This document shows, in pieces, positions 9,052 through 58,981 of a stretch of DNA of 64,000 bases (the stretch's first letter is position 1; each line of letters opens with the position of its first letter). This stretch comes from a virus. A program made the translations under genes and the position numbers. The notes under the pieces are model-generated. The model was not told the DNA's origin and made no database searches. It worked only from the letters and a program-made list of their open reading frames with translations. The stretch lies in the IMG/VR virus record IMGVR_UViG_3300025009_000098, positions 1 through 64,000 of that record; one strand, 5' to 3'.

Positions 9052-9078
9052 GGTTTTATTGCGTGATTGACGTTTTTA

Positions 9079-9095
9079 TTTGTTACTCGGTTTAC
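9079..9095 (+). promoter_or_regulatory. 17-nt operator-like motif, site 3
   Basis: TTTGTTACTCGGTTTAC, upstream (leftward sense) of the 9023-9051 promoter and directly next to the tandem array that begins at 9103. Confidence 0.5.
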
Positions 9096-9102
9096 ATGAT
9101 TG

Positions 9103-9320
9103 CCAGGGCGCAGCTCGTGCATAGCCAGGGCGCAGCTCGTGCATAGCCAGGGCGCAGCTCGTGCATAGCCAGGGCGCAGCTCGTGCATAGCCAGGGCGCA
9201 GCTCGTGCATAGCCAGGGCGCAGCTCGTGCATAGCCAGGGCGCAGCTCGTGCATAGCCAGGGCGCAGCTCGTGCATAGCCAGGGCGCAGCTCGTGCATAG
9301 CCAGGGCGCAGCTCGTGCAT
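9103..9320. repeat. Ten-copy 22-bp tandem repeat (iteron-like array)
   Basis: Units begin at 9103, 9125, 9147, 9169, 9191, 9213, 9235, 9257, 9279 and 9301. Nine are complete and identical; the tenth lacks its last two bases. The unit begins CCAGGGCGCAGCTCGTGC and ends ATAG. 22 bp is close to two helical turns, so all copies face one side of the helix. On the minus strand all three frames stay open through the array, which explains the long overlapping reading frames there; I regard them as artefacts. Iteron origins, packaging sites or regulatory arrays look like this. Confidence 0.9.
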
Positions 9321-9384
9321 GTATGCTCTACGCTCTCCGGCCTGGGATCGTCGGCGCTCGGTTGCCTGGCCGAAGGCGCGTAGC

Positions 9385-51353: not shown

Positions 51354-51410
51354 CCCCTCTTCGATCAAGCTGGTGCAGGCTCAGGTTGGGGAGGGGTTTT
51401 TATTTGTTCC
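51354..51410. other. Inverted repeat beyond gene 51400-52398
   Basis: AAACCCCTC (starting at 51353) and GAGGGGTTT form a 9-bp stem with about 32 nt in the loop; T-rich sequence follows on the plus strand. It lies in the 124-nt gap between two leftward genes, where a leftward partial terminator could act. Confidence 0.35.
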
Positions 51411-52398
51411 TCCGCTGAATTTCCCAAGCCTCTTCCACGACTGCCTTGTTGCAAGTATCGATTATCTCCTTCCGCGTAGCCTCTCTTTTCCGCGCAGTAC
51501 AGACAAGGCACTTCTGGAAGTACGGAGGCTCGTCGATGTTCCAGGTCTCCGGATGTTCGCACTTCGCTACGTACTCTGGGTCTACGTCCCAGGCGTACCA
51601 GCGGCCGATATCTGCTTTGATAACTTCTGTACGGTACGGTGGCTCTGGCTCAGGTAGGTCTACCGTGATACCGGCCGGATACGTTTTCCAGTCAATGGCG
51701 TCACCGCGTAACCGCAACTCCAACTGCGCCAGCACGTTCCAACACTTATGAGCGTCGTGCAGTAGGCCGGAGTCCTGGTCGTACTCCTCATGCCTGGACT
51801 TCAGCAGGTGCCGCCACTCGGCGTCCTTGTAGCGGGTCAGGGCATCAGGTACTGACTGCCACCCGCCTCGTGAATATTTCTTCGCCCCGTGGGTGCCGAC
51901 CTCGGCCACTGCCTGCAGGGCCAGGGAGAAATCACTGAGGGTGGCGGCCAGCAACTTGCCGCCATCGAGCTTGGCCCCAGGCTCATGCGCCTCGGCACCG
52001 GTGGGGTCGAACTCATTTGAAGGACCAGATCCTTTCTTGCTCTCACATTTCGGACACACCTGCGGCTCGTTGGGGGTCTTCAGTACGCTGTACATCCCAT
52101 GCACTGGGCACTTTGCCATGCTGTAGCCTTCCTCCGGCTCTACCCCATCGGCTTTTTCCTCCTCAATCTGGCGGTACAGGGCGGCCTGGGTCAGACAGGT
52201 GGGGCAGGTCTTCTGCTTGGAGGTGACTTCGTACTCGCCGTGGACGGGGCAGGTCAGGACAAGTTGAGCTTTTGTCTTTTCCTCTCTCGGAGGTAAATTC
52301 AACCCACAGTCTACGCACTTTACTATTCCGCGGGTTATTGTCCGCGTTCGGTGGTGGTCACAGTTTAAGGCGGTGAGGTGTTCATCATTGTACGTCAT
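51400..52398 (-). CDS. dATP/dGTP diphosphohydrolase-like protein with tandem zinc ribbons
   Basis: 332 residues from ATG 52398 (GTG 52401 possible). Residues 142-230 match the DUF5664 family (LDGGKLL, VAEVGTHGAKKYSRGGW, YKDAEWRHLLK, DQDSGLLHDAHKCWN), MazG-like enzymes annotated as dATP/dGTP diphosphohydrolases. Before it are zinc-ribbon-like modules (C13-x-H-H to C28/C31; C50 to C65/C68; C97 to C115/C118), and a further C-x-H ... CxxC follows near the C-terminus. The fusion is unusual. In phages with 2-aminoadenine DNA a related MazZ acts with PurZ; no PurZ is visible in this window. Confidence 0.75.
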   Translation of the reverse strand: MTYNDEHLTALNCDHHRTRTITRGIVKCVDCGLNLPPREEKTKAQLVLTCPVHGEYEVTSKQKTCPTCLTQAALYRQIEEEKADGVEPEEGYSMAKCPVHGMYSVLKTPNEPQVCPKCESKKGSGPSNEFDPTGAEAHEPGAKLDGGKLLAATLSDFSLALQAVAEVGTHGAKKYSRGGWQSVPDALTRYKDAEWRHLLKSRHEEYDQDSGLLHDAHKCWNVLAQLELRLRGDAIDWKTYPAGITVDLPEPEPPYRTEVIKADIGRWYAWDVDPEYVAKCEHPETWNIDEPPYFQKCLVCTARKREATRKEIIDTCNKAVVEEAWEIQRRNK

Positions 52399-52577
52399 CA
52401 CTCAATCTCCTTCTCAATAAGGGTTTGTAATTCTTTCAGCCTCTCGATCTCCCGCTCCTTGGCGCCGATCAGGTCCGCGCAGGACACTTTCGCCGGGACC
52501 CAGAGTCCCTTGCTGATAAACTCACGCAACAGGGCGCCTTGGATGCGGTGGGCGGTCATGAATTTCAGGAGGTTCAT
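52398..52577 (-). CDS. 59-aa helical hypothetical protein
   Basis: MNLLKFMTAHRIQGALLREF and 39 more residues, ending in a coiled-coil-like helix (IGAKEREIERLKELQTLIEK). GGAGG lies 7 nt before ATG 52577. ATGA overlap with the gene above; TGATG with the one below. Unknown function. Confidence 0.6.
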   Translation of the reverse strand: MNLLKFMTAHRIQGALLREFISKGLWVPAKVSCADLIGAKEREIERLKELQTLIEKEIE

Positions 52578-52726
52578 TCAGGAACCTCCAGCTCGAATAC
52601 AGCTCTCTCAAAATGGCCAAGGTTGTGTGCTTCCATGTAGTTCTCTGCCTCTTCTTCTGAATCAAACGGCCCTACAACTCCTTGCACGCCATCAAATATT
52701 CCGCCGTACATTATTACATATTTCAT
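52574..52726 (-). CDS. 50-aa acidic hypothetical protein
   Basis: MKYVIMYGGIFDGVQGVVGP and 30 more residues: strand, strand, helix (DSEEEAENYMEAH), a small ferredoxin-like layout. GGGAGG precedes ATG 52726. Its start lies just below the duplicated thyX-tail sequence. Confidence 0.6.
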   Translation of the reverse strand: MKYVIMYGGIFDGVQGVVGPFDSEEEAENYMEAHNLGHFERAVFELEVPE

Positions 52727-53136
52727 AAAAATTCCTCCCAAGGCATCATGTTCATTTCTCTCCCCTCTTTCTTCTCATCTTCCTTACCTCTAATTCTCCA
52801 TAACTCTGTAGCCTGACAACAACATCCTACCTGGCCAAACAAATCAGAAAGTCCTGATGCTTTCTTAAGAACAATTATCAATTCTGGATTTTCTTCTATG
52901 TACATATCCCATAGAGCGGAATAATAAGAGGCACAGTAATCAGCATTTACTGCCCTTCTTCCTTTAGCTGCTCTCCAGGACAATCCTGTATCACCGTTTT
53001 TGAATACTTTTGAGGCTTGATATAAATCCTCAATAGACTTCCCCCCAAGAGATTTTATTCTTGCATAAAAAGCTGAGAATCTTTTATCCCCTTTTGAAGA
53101 ACATTCAAGGTATGGTGCTTTTCCTATTTTTATCAT
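52723..53136 (-). CDS. Conserved protein with SSKGDKRFSA motif, cassette-like
   Basis: 137 residues. YLECSSKGDKRFSAFYARI, the DTGLSWRAAKGRRAVN region and GQVGCCCQATELWRIR match a conserved phage and bacterial protein of unknown function. AT-rich compared with neighbours. The final residues (MNMMPWEEFL) are identical to those of ThyX and encoded by a near-identical DNA stretch; see the repeat entries. The start has GGAGGAG, itself part of the repeated segment. Confidence 0.7.
   Translation of the reverse strand: MIKIGKAPYLECSSKGDKRFSAFYARIKSLGGKSIEDLYQASKVFKNGDTGLSWRAAKGRRAVNADYCASYYSALWDMYIEENPELIIVLKKASGLSDLFGQVGCCCQATELWRIRGKEDEKKEGREMNMMPWEEFL
52724..52757. repeat. Direct repeat copy 1 (thyX-tail duplicate)
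   Basis: About 34 nt nearly identical to 53134-53167, with a few differences near the ends. It encodes the same C-terminal residues and the same start-plus-ribosome-binding context as at the end of thyX. Confidence 0.8.
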
Positions 53137-54002
53137 AAGAACTCCTCCCAAGGCATCATGTTCATTACTCGCTGCATATCAGGATGAGCCGCCGGGACAG
53201 TCCTGAGCGTACGAATGTGATTCCATTCAGCAGCATCAGCTGTGACTACGATCTCAGTTTTCAGGGCGTTGGGCAGGACGGCCCGGGCTTGTTGGGGAGA
53301 AAGTTCTCCAATACTCAACATGAACTTATATTGAGCTTCCGATATCGAACAACTATCACGGAAAGTAAGTTTTCCAGATCCATCCCAATCTTCAAATTCA
53401 GTCGGCTCAATAAACTCCATATCCTTGCCAGCATAATTCACATACCTAGTTGACTCCTGTGCAAATGAGCATGGACGATGCCGCACCAACTCATGGCTGA
53501 CGCCGCGATCACAAATGAATTTAGCTGAATAACGATGAAGGGCTGGTGGAATCTCGTTGTAGGAACAAACTTCCCACTGACCGCAGCTACCTTCAGATAA
53601 ATTAAGCCCAAATAATTCACTATATAATTCGTGAAATGGAGCAAATACTGGTTTGGGAGAATTAAGCATAACGCGTTGATACCAAGCAGTTAAACTTCCG
53701 CCAACATAGCTGTATATACCTCTATGAAAAAAAGTAAGATATTTTCCAATTATATTTTTAATCTTATCTTCAAATTGAATGTTATATGGCCGCTCAAGTC
53801 TAACCACAAAATTAGAATGCTCTACCATAGCCAAATGCCCGGCAGCGATCAGTTTCCTGACGAACTTCTCGGCGCTGTCCGGGGTGATCTTGTCCTCTGA
53901 CTTATAGCAGGTCCTGCCGGCGACCTCGATGAACCGCAAGGCTCCCTCGTAGTCCGTCGGCACCGCTCCGTAAAACTCAACACTTGGACTGATGATTTTC
54001 AT
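53133..54002 (-). CDS. thyX: Flavin-dependent thymidylate synthase ThyX
   Basis: 289 residues. The ThyX motif RHR-x2-S-x4-S-x-R is present at 174-187 (RHRPCSFAQESTRY). It makes dTMP from dUMP using FADH2 and methylene-tetrahydrofolate. The middle of the gene (about 53300-53830) is visibly more AT-rich than both ends, suggesting mosaic recombination. AAGGAG precedes ATG 54002. Confidence 0.95.
   Translation of the reverse strand: MKIISPSVEFYGAVPTDYEGALRFIEVAGRTCYKSEDKITPDSAEKFVRKLIAAGHLAMVEHSNFVVRLERPYNIQFEDKIKNIIGKYLTFFHRGIYSYVGGSLTAWYQRVMLNSPKPVFAPFHELYSELFGLNLSEGSCGQWEVCSYNEIPPALHRYSAKFICDRGVSHELVRHRPCSFAQESTRYVNYAGKDMEFIEPTEFEDWDGSGKLTFRDSCSISEAQYKFMLSIGELSPQQARAVLPNALKTEIVVTADAAEWNHIRTLRTVPAAHPDMQRVMNMMPWEEFL
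53134..53167. repeat. Direct repeat copy 2 (3' end of thyX)
   Basis: Partner of 52724-52757. Recombination between the two copies would delete the 410-bp unit carrying the SSKGDKRFSA gene and restore a single thyX end. Confidence 0.8.
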
Positions 54003-54018
54003 AAGGTCTCCTTATATG

Positions 54019-56901
54019 TTAAAGTTTCATCGCCCCAGCCGACTTCATGTCAGCTTTCGCCAGCAGCGTCCCGACTTCCTTCAACTCCTGGATAACCCCG
54101 CCCAGGTGCGGGGATTTCATATTGATCGTCCACACCGGCTGGCGCATGGAGTCATACGTCGTGCCGCTGCCCAGTGCCTTATGAGCGTTGCCGCTCAGGA
54201 GTATCTTCTTCGCCTCGAGTTCCTTGCGCACTCCCGAGTACGACCCGAACCGCTTGGCTATCCAGGTCTTGAACGCCGCTCTGGATATGAACAGCAGGTC
54301 GTTCTCAACCTCGTAGCGGATGACCAGCGGCCCCCGCGGTGCCTCGACGATCAGGCAGGGCAGGCGGGTGCTGGTGATGCCCTTGACCAATAATCTGTTA
54401 TGAGCATGTTCGTCCAAAAACTGTCCCAGGATGCCGATCGCATCCCCGGCCAGGTCGTCCTTGTCACCGCGCATGTTCCTGATCACGCTGATCACCCACT
54501 CCATCGGGTCGACGACGTTGAACTTAATCAACCCGAGAGACTTGGCGATCGCTCCACCGACTAGAGACGCCGAAGCAACGGCCGACCAATACCTCTCATC
54601 TCCCCGGGTCTTCGCTCTTAAATCGATCTTCTCCCGCATCTTCTCAATGGCGATCTTCACCACATCGACGTTCTTGACCAGCCACTTGGCATAGATCTCG
54701 CCGGCATGGCCGTAATTCTCGTGGATTGTCCAGTAGGCTTGGGTCGCGGTCTGGCCCTTGAAACAGGTCATCTCCGGCACCGGGTACTCAAAGACCCGGT
54801 TGATCTCGGCGGAGGCGTCGTGCTTCAGTTCGCTGAGCTTATCGATCAGGGAGGCGTTGGAGCTGGTGACGGCCAGAGTGTTCCAGGAGTTGATCAGCTT
54901 GCGCTCCTCGGAGTTCTTGGTGAGTCGGGCCTTGTCTCGCCCCTGGGTGACCTTATAGACGAAGTCGCTGATCTCGATCCCGGGCATGTTGGTCACCTCG
55001 TCGACCACCAACGGCAGATTGCCGTAGACCCCGAGCCTGCTCACCAGGGCGTTCTTGGTATCGTCCCGCAGCATCATCAGGTCGTTGTGATACCCCCAGA
55101 CCGATTGGTTCCACCGCAGCATCAGGGTCTTGCCGGCTCCGGAGTCGCCGACCAGCGACACCAAGGCCCCGTCGAAGCCGGTGAAGGGCATCAGCGGGGC
55201 GCCGAAGGAGGCCAGCAGTGCGAAAGCGAACGGCTCCATGCCTGGGCGGCCGAGGATCTCAGTGGCCTCGGTCCATTTCTCCAAGGACCCTGCCTGCCGG
55301 AAACCCTCGGCCGACTTTGGCACGTTCCTGGCCAGGCTGGCCTCTTCGACCGCACCGTTTGAGTGGTAGATCTTCTTACCGTGGACGAACATCGGCGAGG
55401 CGGTGTCCAGGTCCTTCCAGCCCATCTGGCAGAGCAGTTTGGTCATCTTCTGGTGCCGCTGCAGTTTTGCCTGATACGATTCGATATAGCCGAGCATATG
55501 CTTTTTCTCCTTTGCACCTACTACCTTGATATGTGAGTCTGCAAGTATGGTCATCAGGGCCTTGGGGTCGTGGACCAGTGAGGACCTGAGCGTACACTCC
55601 AGCGCCCCCTCGTGCGGCAGATGATGCTTGATCGTCATCACCTCATAGCCCAGGCTCTCGTCGTAGGCCAGCCGTTCCAGGTACAGGTCCATGTCGTAGA
55701 ACTTCACCCAGCGGCCCTCTTCCTCAGCGAACAGGCCGTCCTTGCTGCGCCGGTAGCCGGGCGGGGTGTCGCATGTGGTTACCGGCACCTCTGCCTTCAC
55801 CGGCTCCGGCCGGCCGAGGACGATCGGCGACTTGATCTTGCCGTTGTGCGGACAGCCGATGCAGGTCTGCGGGTTCTCGCTGCCCAGCTTGGCGCAGGTC
55901 GTGGGGCCCACTCCCGCGGTGCGCCATTGCAGGATCTTGTCGTCGGTCTGAGTGGTTGAGTAGCCCGAGTGTCCCTGCGACCACTCGTGAATAATCTCCT
56001 CGCCGTTGATGCAGTGCACCAGGATGCCGATGCAGGAGTACCAGAGCGGCTCGGGGATGTTGCCCCCTGTCGAGCGCATCAGGCCGACTTGGGCGCACTT
56101 GGCGGCGATCAGGTTGGCGTCGTTGATCGACTCCTCGTAGACGAAGAACTCGGCGTTGACATCCTTGTTTGCTTTGGGCGGCAGCAGGGCGTCGTGCTTC
56201 ACCTTCTTGGCCTTGGCCGCGGCTCTGAGCTTGGCGGCGAAATCCTCAAAGGCGATGTCCTTGTTCGGGTCGTGCAGGATGGTGACCGGTTTCGGCTCGC
56301 GGCCAGGCTTTCGGTTGGTGGTGCCGGGGATCCGGAGAACCGAGGCGGTGTCCGAGGTCCTGGTCGAGTCGCCGCCGATGGCAGGAGAATACGCGGCCAC
56401 GACTTTCTTCAGTAAGTAGGCCACGGTCTGCCACTGCGGCGCAGGTATGGCCTGGTCAAGTATCCAGTGGGCATAGAGGCCGTTGCCGGAGTTGATGACG
56501 GCGGGCATCGGCAGGCCGGTCTCTGTGACGAATTGCTGCAGGGCTTTGCACCCCTCGCTCTGGTTCTTCAGAGGCCACTTCTCACCGCAGTCGATGTCCA
56601 GGAAGAAGTTCTTCAGGTACCGAGCGTTGTCCTGGCTGCGGGTCTTTCTGGCCAGGGCTTTGTACTCAGGTTTCGGCAGGCCGTAAGGTATCTGTTTGTT
56701 ATGGGCCTGGGCTTCCCGGATCTTCTCCGGGTCGTAGGTTGCCTGGGTTATGTAGGTGGTATTGCCGTTCTTATCCAGCATCTTGATCTGGAGAACGGCG
56801 GAGTCGAGGTCTTCAAAAAAGAAATGCCGGAAGCCTCCGCTGGGGAGCAGCTGCGCGACGCAATACATCCCTTCTTCCGGAAGGAGCCGGTGCAAGAACA
56901 T
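54019..56901 (-). CDS. Primase-helicase (AEP-like primase fused to DUF927-type helicase)
   Basis: 960 residues. N-terminal half: archaeo-eukaryotic-primase-like features with FFLDIDCGEK (DxD about 98-103), PAVINSGNGLYAHWILD and RTSDTASVLRIPGTTN. C-terminal half: helicase ATPase with Walker A GDSGAGKT (about 584-591), LPLVVDEVTN as Walker B and TSSNAS as sensor, matching DUF927 helicases. A CIGCPHNG zinc-binding segment lies between. It should prime and unwind at the fork. GGAGG precedes ATG 56901. Confidence 0.85.
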   Translation of the reverse strand: MFLHRLLPEEGMYCVAQLLPSGGFRHFFFEDLDSAVLQIKMLDKNGNTTYITQATYDPEKIREAQAHNKQIPYGLPKPEYKALARKTRSQDNARYLKNFFLDIDCGEKWPLKNQSEGCKALQQFVTETGLPMPAVINSGNGLYAHWILDQAIPAPQWQTVAYLLKKVVAAYSPAIGGDSTRTSDTASVLRIPGTTNRKPGREPKPVTILHDPNKDIAFEDFAAKLRAAAKAKKVKHDALLPPKANKDVNAEFFVYEESINDANLIAAKCAQVGLMRSTGGNIPEPLWYSCIGILVHCINGEEIIHEWSQGHSGYSTTQTDDKILQWRTAGVGPTTCAKLGSENPQTCIGCPHNGKIKSPIVLGRPEPVKAEVPVTTCDTPPGYRRSKDGLFAEEEGRWVKFYDMDLYLERLAYDESLGYEVMTIKHHLPHEGALECTLRSSLVHDPKALMTILADSHIKVVGAKEKKHMLGYIESYQAKLQRHQKMTKLLCQMGWKDLDTASPMFVHGKKIYHSNGAVEEASLARNVPKSAEGFRQAGSLEKWTEATEILGRPGMEPFAFALLASFGAPLMPFTGFDGALVSLVGDSGAGKTLMLRWNQSVWGYHNDLMMLRDDTKNALVSRLGVYGNLPLVVDEVTNMPGIEISDFVYKVTQGRDKARLTKNSEERKLINSWNTLAVTSSNASLIDKLSELKHDASAEINRVFEYPVPEMTCFKGQTATQAYWTIHENYGHAGEIYAKWLVKNVDVVKIAIEKMREKIDLRAKTRGDERYWSAVASASLVGGAIAKSLGLIKFNVVDPMEWVISVIRNMRGDKDDLAGDAIGILGQFLDEHAHNRLLVKGITSTRLPCLIVEAPRGPLVIRYEVENDLLFISRAAFKTWIAKRFGSYSGVRKELEAKKILLSGNAHKALGSGTTYDSMRQPVWTINMKSPHLGGVIQELKEVGTLLAKADMKSAGAMKL

Positions 56902-57314: not shown

Positions 57315-58439
57315 TTACAGACCAAGGTCCCTGATCAACTGGTCGTCACTCGGCTCAAGACCGCCGGCATGGACCGGGGTGTTACTGACCGGAGCAGCAG
57401 AGGTCCCGCCGAGGTCGAGGTCATCCAGCAGTTCGGCATCCGGTTTGGCAGCGAGTTTTGCAGCAGCCTCGGCAGCTTCCTTCTCAGCCTTCTTGGCTGC
57501 CTTGGTGGCGGCGGACTTGGCGGCAGCTTCCGCCCGGGTCTTGGCTATGACGGCTTCTTTCTCGGCTGCGGCCTGGGCCTCTGCTTCTGCCTTGGCAGCT
57601 TCTGCCTGCATATCAGCAGGGGTGAATATTTCGTCGGCCGTAGTGGCCAGTGCGACCGGCGGTGCCGGCAGGGCAGGTGCCGACGACATGCCAGCGATAA
57701 TGTCCTCAACCTCCGGCAGGGCGGCGATCTCGGCCAGCTTGGGTAGGGTGTCCTGGGGCAGGAAACCGCCGAATTTGAAGACTACGACCGGGAAGGTCTG
57801 GGCCAAGTCGAACGCTACCAGGGTCTTGGCGGTGCCGAGCGGGATGCCGGCAGCACTCAACTGTTTGACGTACATGCCGAAGTTCTTCAGCGAAGCCGGC
57901 GGGATCTTGAACATATAGGCCTTCGGGTCGGTCTCGGCCTTGCGGCTGCCGGGGATGAAGACGGCCAGGGTCTTGGTGTCCGAGCAGGCCTTGCCCTTGG
58001 TGGCGTTGCCGTTCTGGTCGGTCCCGGAGCCGAAGGCATTGTGTGGACAGTTGGCACACAACTCGCTCTGCGGGCTCGGAGAGGTCGGGTCAGGACGCAG
58101 GCTGTCGGTAGAGAAACAGTCCGGGCTCTTGCCTTCCTCGCCGGGGTTGAAGGCGGTAGCATACCAGGTCTTCTGCAAGGGCTTTTTGGCCCTGAGAATA
58201 ACCATCGGCAGGTAGGCGTTGTCGTCAGGGCCGATCACCATCTTGCCGGCCGGGAAGGCAGTCTCGTCGCCGTTGGCATCAACCAGGGTGAACTGCTTAC
58301 CACTGAGTTTGAGCCGCGGAGGCATACCGGTACTGATGCCGGCCGCCGCGTCGTCATTGGCCTGCTTGGCCAACTCGGAATTGAGAATATATGAGGGAAT
58401 GGTAGTACGGTCTGGAATCATCAGGTCCAAATTGCTCAT
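57315..58439 (-). CDS. Putative single-stranded DNA-binding protein
   Basis: 374 residues. Globular first 210 residues with a Cys cluster (LCANCPHNAFGSG, KGKACSDTKTLAVF), then an Ala/Lys/Glu linker (about 270-335) and an acidic end (ELLDDLDLGGTS ... DDQLIRDLGL), the SSB layout of core, linker and acidic tip. The family is common in phages, where I have seen it annotated as ssDNA-binding. AAGGAG precedes ATG 58439; ATGA overlaps the HNH gene. Confidence 0.65.
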   Translation of the reverse strand: MSNLDLMIPDRTTIPSYILNSELAKQANDDAAAGISTGMPPRLKLSGKQFTLVDANGDETAFPAGKMVIGPDDNAYLPMVILRAKKPLQKTWYATAFNPGEEGKSPDCFSTDSLRPDPTSPSPQSELCANCPHNAFGSGTDQNGNATKGKACSDTKTLAVFIPGSRKAETDPKAYMFKIPPASLKNFGMYVKQLSAAGIPLGTAKTLVAFDLAQTFPVVVFKFGGFLPQDTLPKLAEIAALPEVEDIIAGMSSAPALPAPPVALATTADEIFTPADMQAEAAKAEAEAQAAAEKEAVIAKTRAEAAAKSAATKAAKKAEKEAAEAAAKLAAKPDAELLDDLDLGGTSAAPVSNTPVHAGGLEPSDDQLIRDLGL

Positions 58440-58981
58440 TTTACTACTCCTTTTTGTTGTTGTACGAATTGAGTAACGAACTTTTTAGCAGGAGAAGCTG
58501 CGTTACAACTGCCCCACCCTGCACATTGCTCCGCCGCTAGGCGTAAACACACCGCTTCTATTTTGTCATAGCATCTCCCTAAGTTTACTACCTTGCCTTT
58601 GTTACAAATCATAGCGCACCATTTTTGCCTACCACTGCTCCAATTTACTCCGCGTATACCAGATGTTTTATTCGGTCTCCTTAGAGAATTTTTAATGTTA
58701 CAGCTTTGAGATACTTCTCTGAGGTTCTCTATTCTGTTATCTTTTTTGTTCCTGTTTATGTGGTCTATTCCATGCTCCGGGAAATACCCATTATGGTACA
58801 ACCACACCAATCTATGTACATAGTAGCTTTTCCGATCAGCTGTTACTCCAAGGTACCCGAGGCCTTTAGCGCTCCCCGCAACATCTCCTGGTTTTGTATT
58901 AGAGCTTGCAGACGATCGGCGCACTAAGGTCCCATCACATCTGTACTCAAATAGTTCTCGTACCCGTTGCTGTGTAATCAC
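58436..58981 (-). CDS. HNH endonuclease with AP2-like domain
   Basis: 181 residues from GTG 58981. HRLVWLYHNGYFPEHGIDHI and NRIENLREVS are the HNH homing-endonuclease pattern; the following IRGVNWSSGRQKWCAMI segment is an AP2 DNA-binding domain. A mobile gene inserted between the SSB-like gene and the upstream replication gene. AT-richer than both. Confidence 0.85.
   Translation of the reverse strand: MITQQRVRELFEYRCDGTLVRRSSASSNTKPGDVAGSAKGLGYLGVTADRKSYYVHRLVWLYHNGYFPEHGIDHINRNKKDNRIENLREVSQSCNIKNSLRRPNKTSGIRGVNWSSGRQKWCAMICNKGKVVNLGRCYDKIEAVCLRLAAEQCAGWGSCNAASPAKKFVTQFVQQQKGVVK

Follow-up and report, generated by a model that had tools for sequence, protein, structure and literature searches.

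Introduction

Mycobacteriophage Island3 has a gene, 68, that is absent from phage Brujita and whose 3′ end is common to gene 67; recombination between sequences of about 50 bp has been discussed for this pair (Pope et al. 2011, PMC3029335). The extra gene has no homologs, lies behind a conserved gene, and repeats the C-terminus of that gene at its own end (18 residues, approximately 50–60 bp), and Brujita is a single-copy relative without it. The two genomes differ by only about 100 nt, so the event is recent. Other described systems share single features with this arrangement. Phage morons and boundary-sequence mosaicism, as far as they are summarized in PMC3029335, involve one gene of foreign composition between genes that are adjacent in a relative, with a short conserved boundary, and morons have their own promoter and terminator. 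In the PeSL regulatory cassettes of T4 (Arbiol 2010, as cited in PMC4503421), a repeated promoter–stem-loop flanks exchangeable small genes. Free-standing HNH homing endonuclease genes of T-even phages, such as mobE, lie behind a nucleotide-metabolism gene with a stop/start overlap (PMC2988022). Here, we describe a viral locus in which a gene for a NADAR-fold protein stands behind thyX and ends in a second copy of the thyX tail.

Results

The gene behind thyX and its copied tail

The window is the 64,000-nt stretch analyzed here, from an IMG/VR virus sequence of 65,168 bases that came from a metagenome. On its minus strand, a DUF927 primase/helicase-like gene (960 aa, 54019..56901; Pfam DUF927, E 8.6e-27), kept in this order in relatives, is followed by thyX (53133..54002), which encodes a flavin-dependent thymidylate synthase of 289 aa (Pfam Thy1, E 1.6e-34). 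Behind thyX come a 137-aa gene for a NADAR-fold protein, referred to below as the inserted gene (52723..53136), a small MKYVI-type gene of 50 aa (52574..52726; start MKYVIMYGGIFDGVQG...), and a 59-aa gene beginning MNLLKF (52398..52577); 4-nt overlaps link thyX and these three genes in that order. Within thyX, the ends are GC-richer than the middle (53577-53802), which is very AT-rich (GC 0.336) and changes fastest among relatives. Further along the same strand, the gene at 51400-52401 has a dGTP diphosphohydrolase N-terminal-like domain, and its N-terminal half is zinc-ribbon-like; its best PHROG label, "endolysin; inhibits RNA polymerase," is apparently a mislabel.

The first-pass annotation had reported a near-perfect 34-nt direct repeat at the ends of thyX and the inserted gene. 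The repeat is where it was claimed to be, with the small correction that "near-perfect" stands for 31/34 matches, or three mismatches. It extends to 38 nt, of which 35 are identical (longest exact run, 24 nt), and no similarity was found outside these 38 nt, the flanks matching at 9/40 and 12/40 positions. The upstream copy (53133..53170, minus strand) is the native 3′ end of thyX, and the downstream copy (52723..52760, minus strand) provides the C-terminal codons of the inserted gene. Each copy codes for MNMMPWEEFL, carries a Shine-Dalgarno (SD)-like sequence a few bases 5′ of an ATG (GGGAGGAG at 53149-53142 in the upstream copy; GGGAGGAA at 52739-52732 in the downstream copy, where it serves the 50-aa gene), and ends in ATGA (53136-53133 and 52726-52723). 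As had been noticed, both proteins share this C-terminus and each tail overlaps the next start; the inserted gene itself begins (ATGAT...) in the ATGA stop of thyX. The further claim that a 410-nt unit can be removed also held, since its deletion in silico leaves a 289-aa ThyX ending in MNMMPWEEFL, with the start of the 50-aa ORF still in an overlapping ATGA. Apart from a tandem array with a 22-nt period and about ten or more copies (9055-9362), this is the only direct repeat of at least 26 nt in the 64 kb, and the only repeated 20-mers outside the array lie within it.

At repeat position 4, the upstream copy has T, as do all of the 40 distinct thyX tails found in relatives (40/40). The downstream copy has A, and is thereby recognizable as the transplanted, truncated one. 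Assigning each tail to a source phage proved uninformative, as relatives show every combination of variants at positions 29 and 32, and the three mismatches between the two tails fit drift as well as they fit two sources. The record is an IMG/VR contig, in which two phages of one sample might have been wrongly joined. The exact run shared by the copies is only 24 nt, however, and frame, ribosome-binding site (RBS), and 4-nt overlaps are kept at both junctions, which would be unlikely in a random misjoin; we therefore hold an assembly artefact to be extremely improbable.

Empty sites in relatives

A scan of viral contigs with thyX gave 80 related loci. In two of them, L022 and L023, a homolog of the window's 50-aa gene comes directly after the thyX tail and overlaps it by the same ATGA. 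This is the empty arrangement of the proposed insertion behind thyX, with its second thyX tail and kept stop/start coupling. Aligned over 54002-52392, the window and L023 are otherwise continuous, with a single clean 410-nt gap at the repeat. Relative to L022 and L023, the window carries one insertion, which brings a second thyX tail and keeps frame, RBS, and overlaps. Without any insertion, chance or selection for a common RBS might account for the likeness of the two gene ends; in favor of this, GGGAGGA is a functional SD core and relatives conserve the tail. Yet the 24-nt exact run with the same ten codons occurs nowhere else in the 64 kb, relatives lack exactly this unit, and the empty site in L022 and L023 contradicts such an account, to which we give next to no credence.

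The slot behind thyX can be followed through a syntenic series of relatives with the order primase, thyX, slot, and 59-aa MNLLKF gene. It is empty in L189 and L031, and the 59-aa gene, its conserved far edge, stands directly behind thyX in L031, L032, and L189. An MKYVI-type 50-aa gene fills it in L187 and L023, and other genes do so in L188, L198, and L206. Within this series, NADAR plus MKYVI genes are found in the window only, and since the NADAR gene stands in this slot in none of the other loci compared, one gain is simpler than many losses. Conversely, the filled form could be ancestral and the empty relatives the result of deletion between the two repeats. The 24-nt exact core could recombine, and the authors of the Island3/Brujita comparison likewise could not exclude deletion (PMC3029335). 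We nevertheless find this very improbable, because the place where the window alone has NADAR is empty or taken by another single gene in most relatives, and because the NADAR copy can be recognized as derived by its chimeric end and T-to-A change.

Scans of viral contigs with the NADAR gene, thyX, the primase, and the downstream gene yielded no close relative (>95%) spanning the junction, with or without the insert; the scan with the downstream gene returned nothing. Across the junction, no relative exceeded approximately 80% identity. L204 and L205 are 97% identical to the window in the primase, but their contigs end inside this gene.

The insertion had also been called recent, a claim that found no support, as the thyX tail is conserved across old divergence. 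Relatives match the window's upstream tail copy at a mean of 85% over 38 nt, against 66% over the preceding 60 nt, and in L002 the tail is identical at 38/38 positions although ThyX is only 68% identical. Because the tail is so much better conserved than the adjoining thyX, repeat identity cannot date the event, and dating on this basis was dropped. The tail is presumably constrained as protein end, RBS, and start codon together.

Family and composition of the inserted gene

The inserted protein matches PHROG 9995 over residues 1-119 (phrog_9995, E 4.1e-35), a family without assigned function. Against Pfam NADAR-DarT1 it scores 21.7 bits (E 1.5e-4), below the cut-off of 27; 39/66 family members match this profile at E<0.001 (best, 4.5e-10). 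The AlphaFold2 model has a mean pLDDT of 92. Its closest solved structure is the Geobacter NADAR 8bat (Foldseek E 5.6e-4; Z 10.2 over 119 residues), followed by YbiA (Z 7.8) and the Phytophthora NADAR 8bau (Z 6.8), all far above the next rows; structural-alignment rows below Z 3 (Csy-AcrIF24, Cas12i1) were taken as noise. As modeled, the product is a compact NADAR-fold protein with a 116-aa core. Pfam and PHROG matches were to NADAR and PHROG 9995 only, with none identifying the ORF as an endonuclease.

NADARs undo the ADP-ribosylation of guanine, and DarT1 antitoxins are among them (PMC11543638, PMC11125620). For phage NADARs, a role against host defenses based on ADP-ribose has been proposed (PMC9503650, PMC11125620). 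Judging from the NADAR family, the product is probably an enzyme that clears ADP-ribose off nucleic acids or small molecules, and it would thereby shield the phage against an ADP-ribosylating defense of the host.

The C-terminus does not belong to this family. Residues 1-116 are common to the homologs and are followed by an 11-residue linker and the 10-residue thyX tail. The family set comprised 107 phage records and 80 viral loci; similarity stops at approximately residue 115-119 of the inserted protein, and the homologs, whose ends are unlike one another, typically end 3-26 aa past a WRIR motif. The first-pass annotation had named a thyX tail on homologs of the inserted gene as the finding that would speak against an insertion. 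None of the 80 homologous loci has one, and in only one of the 80 does thyX lie within 4 kb of the NADAR homolog. The tail is therefore foreign to the family and the neighborhood new, which argues that the tail was acquired at a thyX locus. A scan of viral contigs for the exact tail pattern with stop/start overlap found 18 stretches, all on thyX and none on other ORFs. Model confidence drops to a pLDDT of 60-67 across the last 17 residues, so no fixed structural role is indicated for the tail. Elsewhere, NADAR genes are coupled by 4-nt overlaps to 16 unrelated upstream genes (16/64 loci).

The inserted gene is AT-rich, as had been stated, with the lowest GC (0.377) and GC3 (0.292) of the 50 ORFs, for which mean GC3 is 0.611 (SD 0.116); the window as a whole has a GC of 0.547. 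AT-rich relatives exist (L002, L030, and L013; locus GC 0.37-0.39).

How the gene may have been gained

The NADAR gene is present in one genome, lies between genes that are adjacent in a relative, and differs in composition, as a moron does. We think it likely that this tailed-phage-like genome gained the gene behind thyX in a moron-like event, with the 3′ end of the gene joined in frame to a thyX tail by recombination. The gene would have come to lie immediately behind thyX, where its translation could start from the SD site within the thyX tail. At its 3′ end, a second thyX tail would have been attached in frame where the conserved codons stop, to serve both as the NADAR C-terminus and as SD site and overlapping start for the old downstream gene. 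The likeliest route would be recombination between two related phages. One of them would have contributed thyX with the NADAR gene behind it, and a crossover between sequences of hardly any homology, or none, may have joined the 3′ end of this gene to the other phage's thyX tail. The recombinant would have been retained because frame, RBS, and start survived. Comparison with L017 shows mosaicism, with 93-81% identity at the start of thyX, then approximately 50-80%, and again 85-91% from 52577; this mosaicism and the AT-rich relatives are consistent with a two-phage crossover without proving it. Among the relatives, we found no donor phage in which this NADAR gene follows thyX.

Other genes in the slot

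Besides NADAR, at least 11 unrelated genes in relatives have their start within the overlapping stop at the end of the thyX tail, counting overlap-coupled cases only, as a mechanical pick of the first ORF was wrong for some loci that lack the overlap. HNH genes stand right behind thyX in three groups: L054 (PHROG HNH, E 2.8e-63), L055-L061 (HNH_3, E 9.2e-15), and L026-L029 (HNH_3, E 1.9e-17). The HNH gene of L054 (L054:3132-3917) sits inside the thyX tail. There, the thyX end is recoded (RLTSMIPWDRIG), and GCCTTGGGAGGAGTTTTTGTGA is left behind the HNH gene as RBS and start of the next gene, which directly follows thyX in L047, the empty site for L054. Taken together, the window and L054 show that the same kind of junction has been broken by insertion at least twice.

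These HNH genes, and the remnant in L054 with its empty counterpart, speak for a gain driven by an endonuclease. An HNH homing endonuclease would have cut the thyX tail and repair brought in the cargo, or an endonuclease gene in the slot would later have been replaced by NADAR, the rebuilt tail being a by-product of homing. LAGLIDADG/intein-type insertions within thyX of L075 and L103 and an HNH gene in the window itself point the same way. However, the inserted gene is no endonuclease, the 410 nt hold no trace of one, and the window's thyX tail is not recoded. Moreover, the usual cut site of a free-standing T4 endonuclease lies hundreds of bases from its own gene (PMC2988022). We consider this route unlikely and favor moron-like gain by recombination.

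Several related observations were made in passing. The insertion in L075 (L075:394-2352) is intein-like with LAGLIDADG, and the one in L103 (L103:162-1895) is LAGLIDADG-like, at a different place in thyX, with a weak match (LAGLIDADG_3, E 0.002). The window's HNH_3 gene (58436-58981, minus strand) lies between two conserved genes; a homolog (49%) occupies the same junction in L205, and none was detected there in L204 or L187. In L005, L006, L007, and L025-L029, the ThyX C-terminus is extended in frame by an HRCxKHHKDFTG segment. In L023 this segment lies near the N-terminus of the downstream MazG/dGTPase-like gene, and we read the extension as a fusion via slot deletion.

One could go further and view the last ~25 bases of thyX as a recurrent, sequence-defined landing site, at which endonuclease and unrelated cargo genes would arrive by one mechanism (e.g., HNH cutting of the tail, which repair would then restore), and each arrival would leave the next gene with an RBS/start remnant. 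We find this distinctly unlikely. A special hotspot behind thyX is at most a possibility; the idea of a unique one was dropped, as the upstream side of thyX varies too (24 clusters, against 35 downstream).

Discussion

The window offers a well-delimited snapshot of a single-gene gain by a phage, in which the empty site, the foreign gene, and the duplicated boundary can all be read. A gene tail that doubles as RBS and start codon is reusable, so that an added gene is translated and its neighbors are left undisturbed. Since the slot holds different genes, or HNH genes, across the relatives, the question of what promotes gain there becomes testable.

Each of the described systems matches this locus in part. 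Like mobE and its kind, the inserted gene follows a nucleotide-metabolism gene with a stop/start overlap, but it is no endonuclease; HNH genes are found in the same slot of relatives. As in the T4 PeSL cassettes, so far as they are described in PMC4503421, a repeated expression signal flanks a small exchangeable gene; in the window, thyX supplies this signal through its 3′ coding end and RBS, in place of a promoter–stem-loop, and only one duplicated copy was found. With morons, as summarized in PMC3029335, the window has in common a single gene of foreign composition and a short conserved boundary. In contrast to their own promoter and terminator, expression of the inserted gene appears to rest on translation coupling, and the 4-nt overlaps on both of its sides leave no intergenic space. 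The fold is that of the NADAR superfamily (YbiA, DarT1-associated NADAR, T4 gp30.3), although the protein, with its 116-aa core, is shorter and stays below the Pfam cut-off.

The likeness to Island3 genes 67 and 68 goes furthest. There as here, a conserved gene is followed by an additional one that repeats its C-terminus, and the window also has a single-copy empty relative and a tail that is foreign to the family of the insert. L022 and L023 take the place of Brujita. The copied end is shorter in the window (10 residues, 38 nt), and its empty relative is approximately 68–74% identical, whereas Island3 and Brujita are nearly the same. The extra gene of Island3 is without homologs, while the inserted gene belongs to a known family. 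Consequently, the window is a further example of the published Island3 architecture, with a recognizable cargo family and a richer series of relatives.
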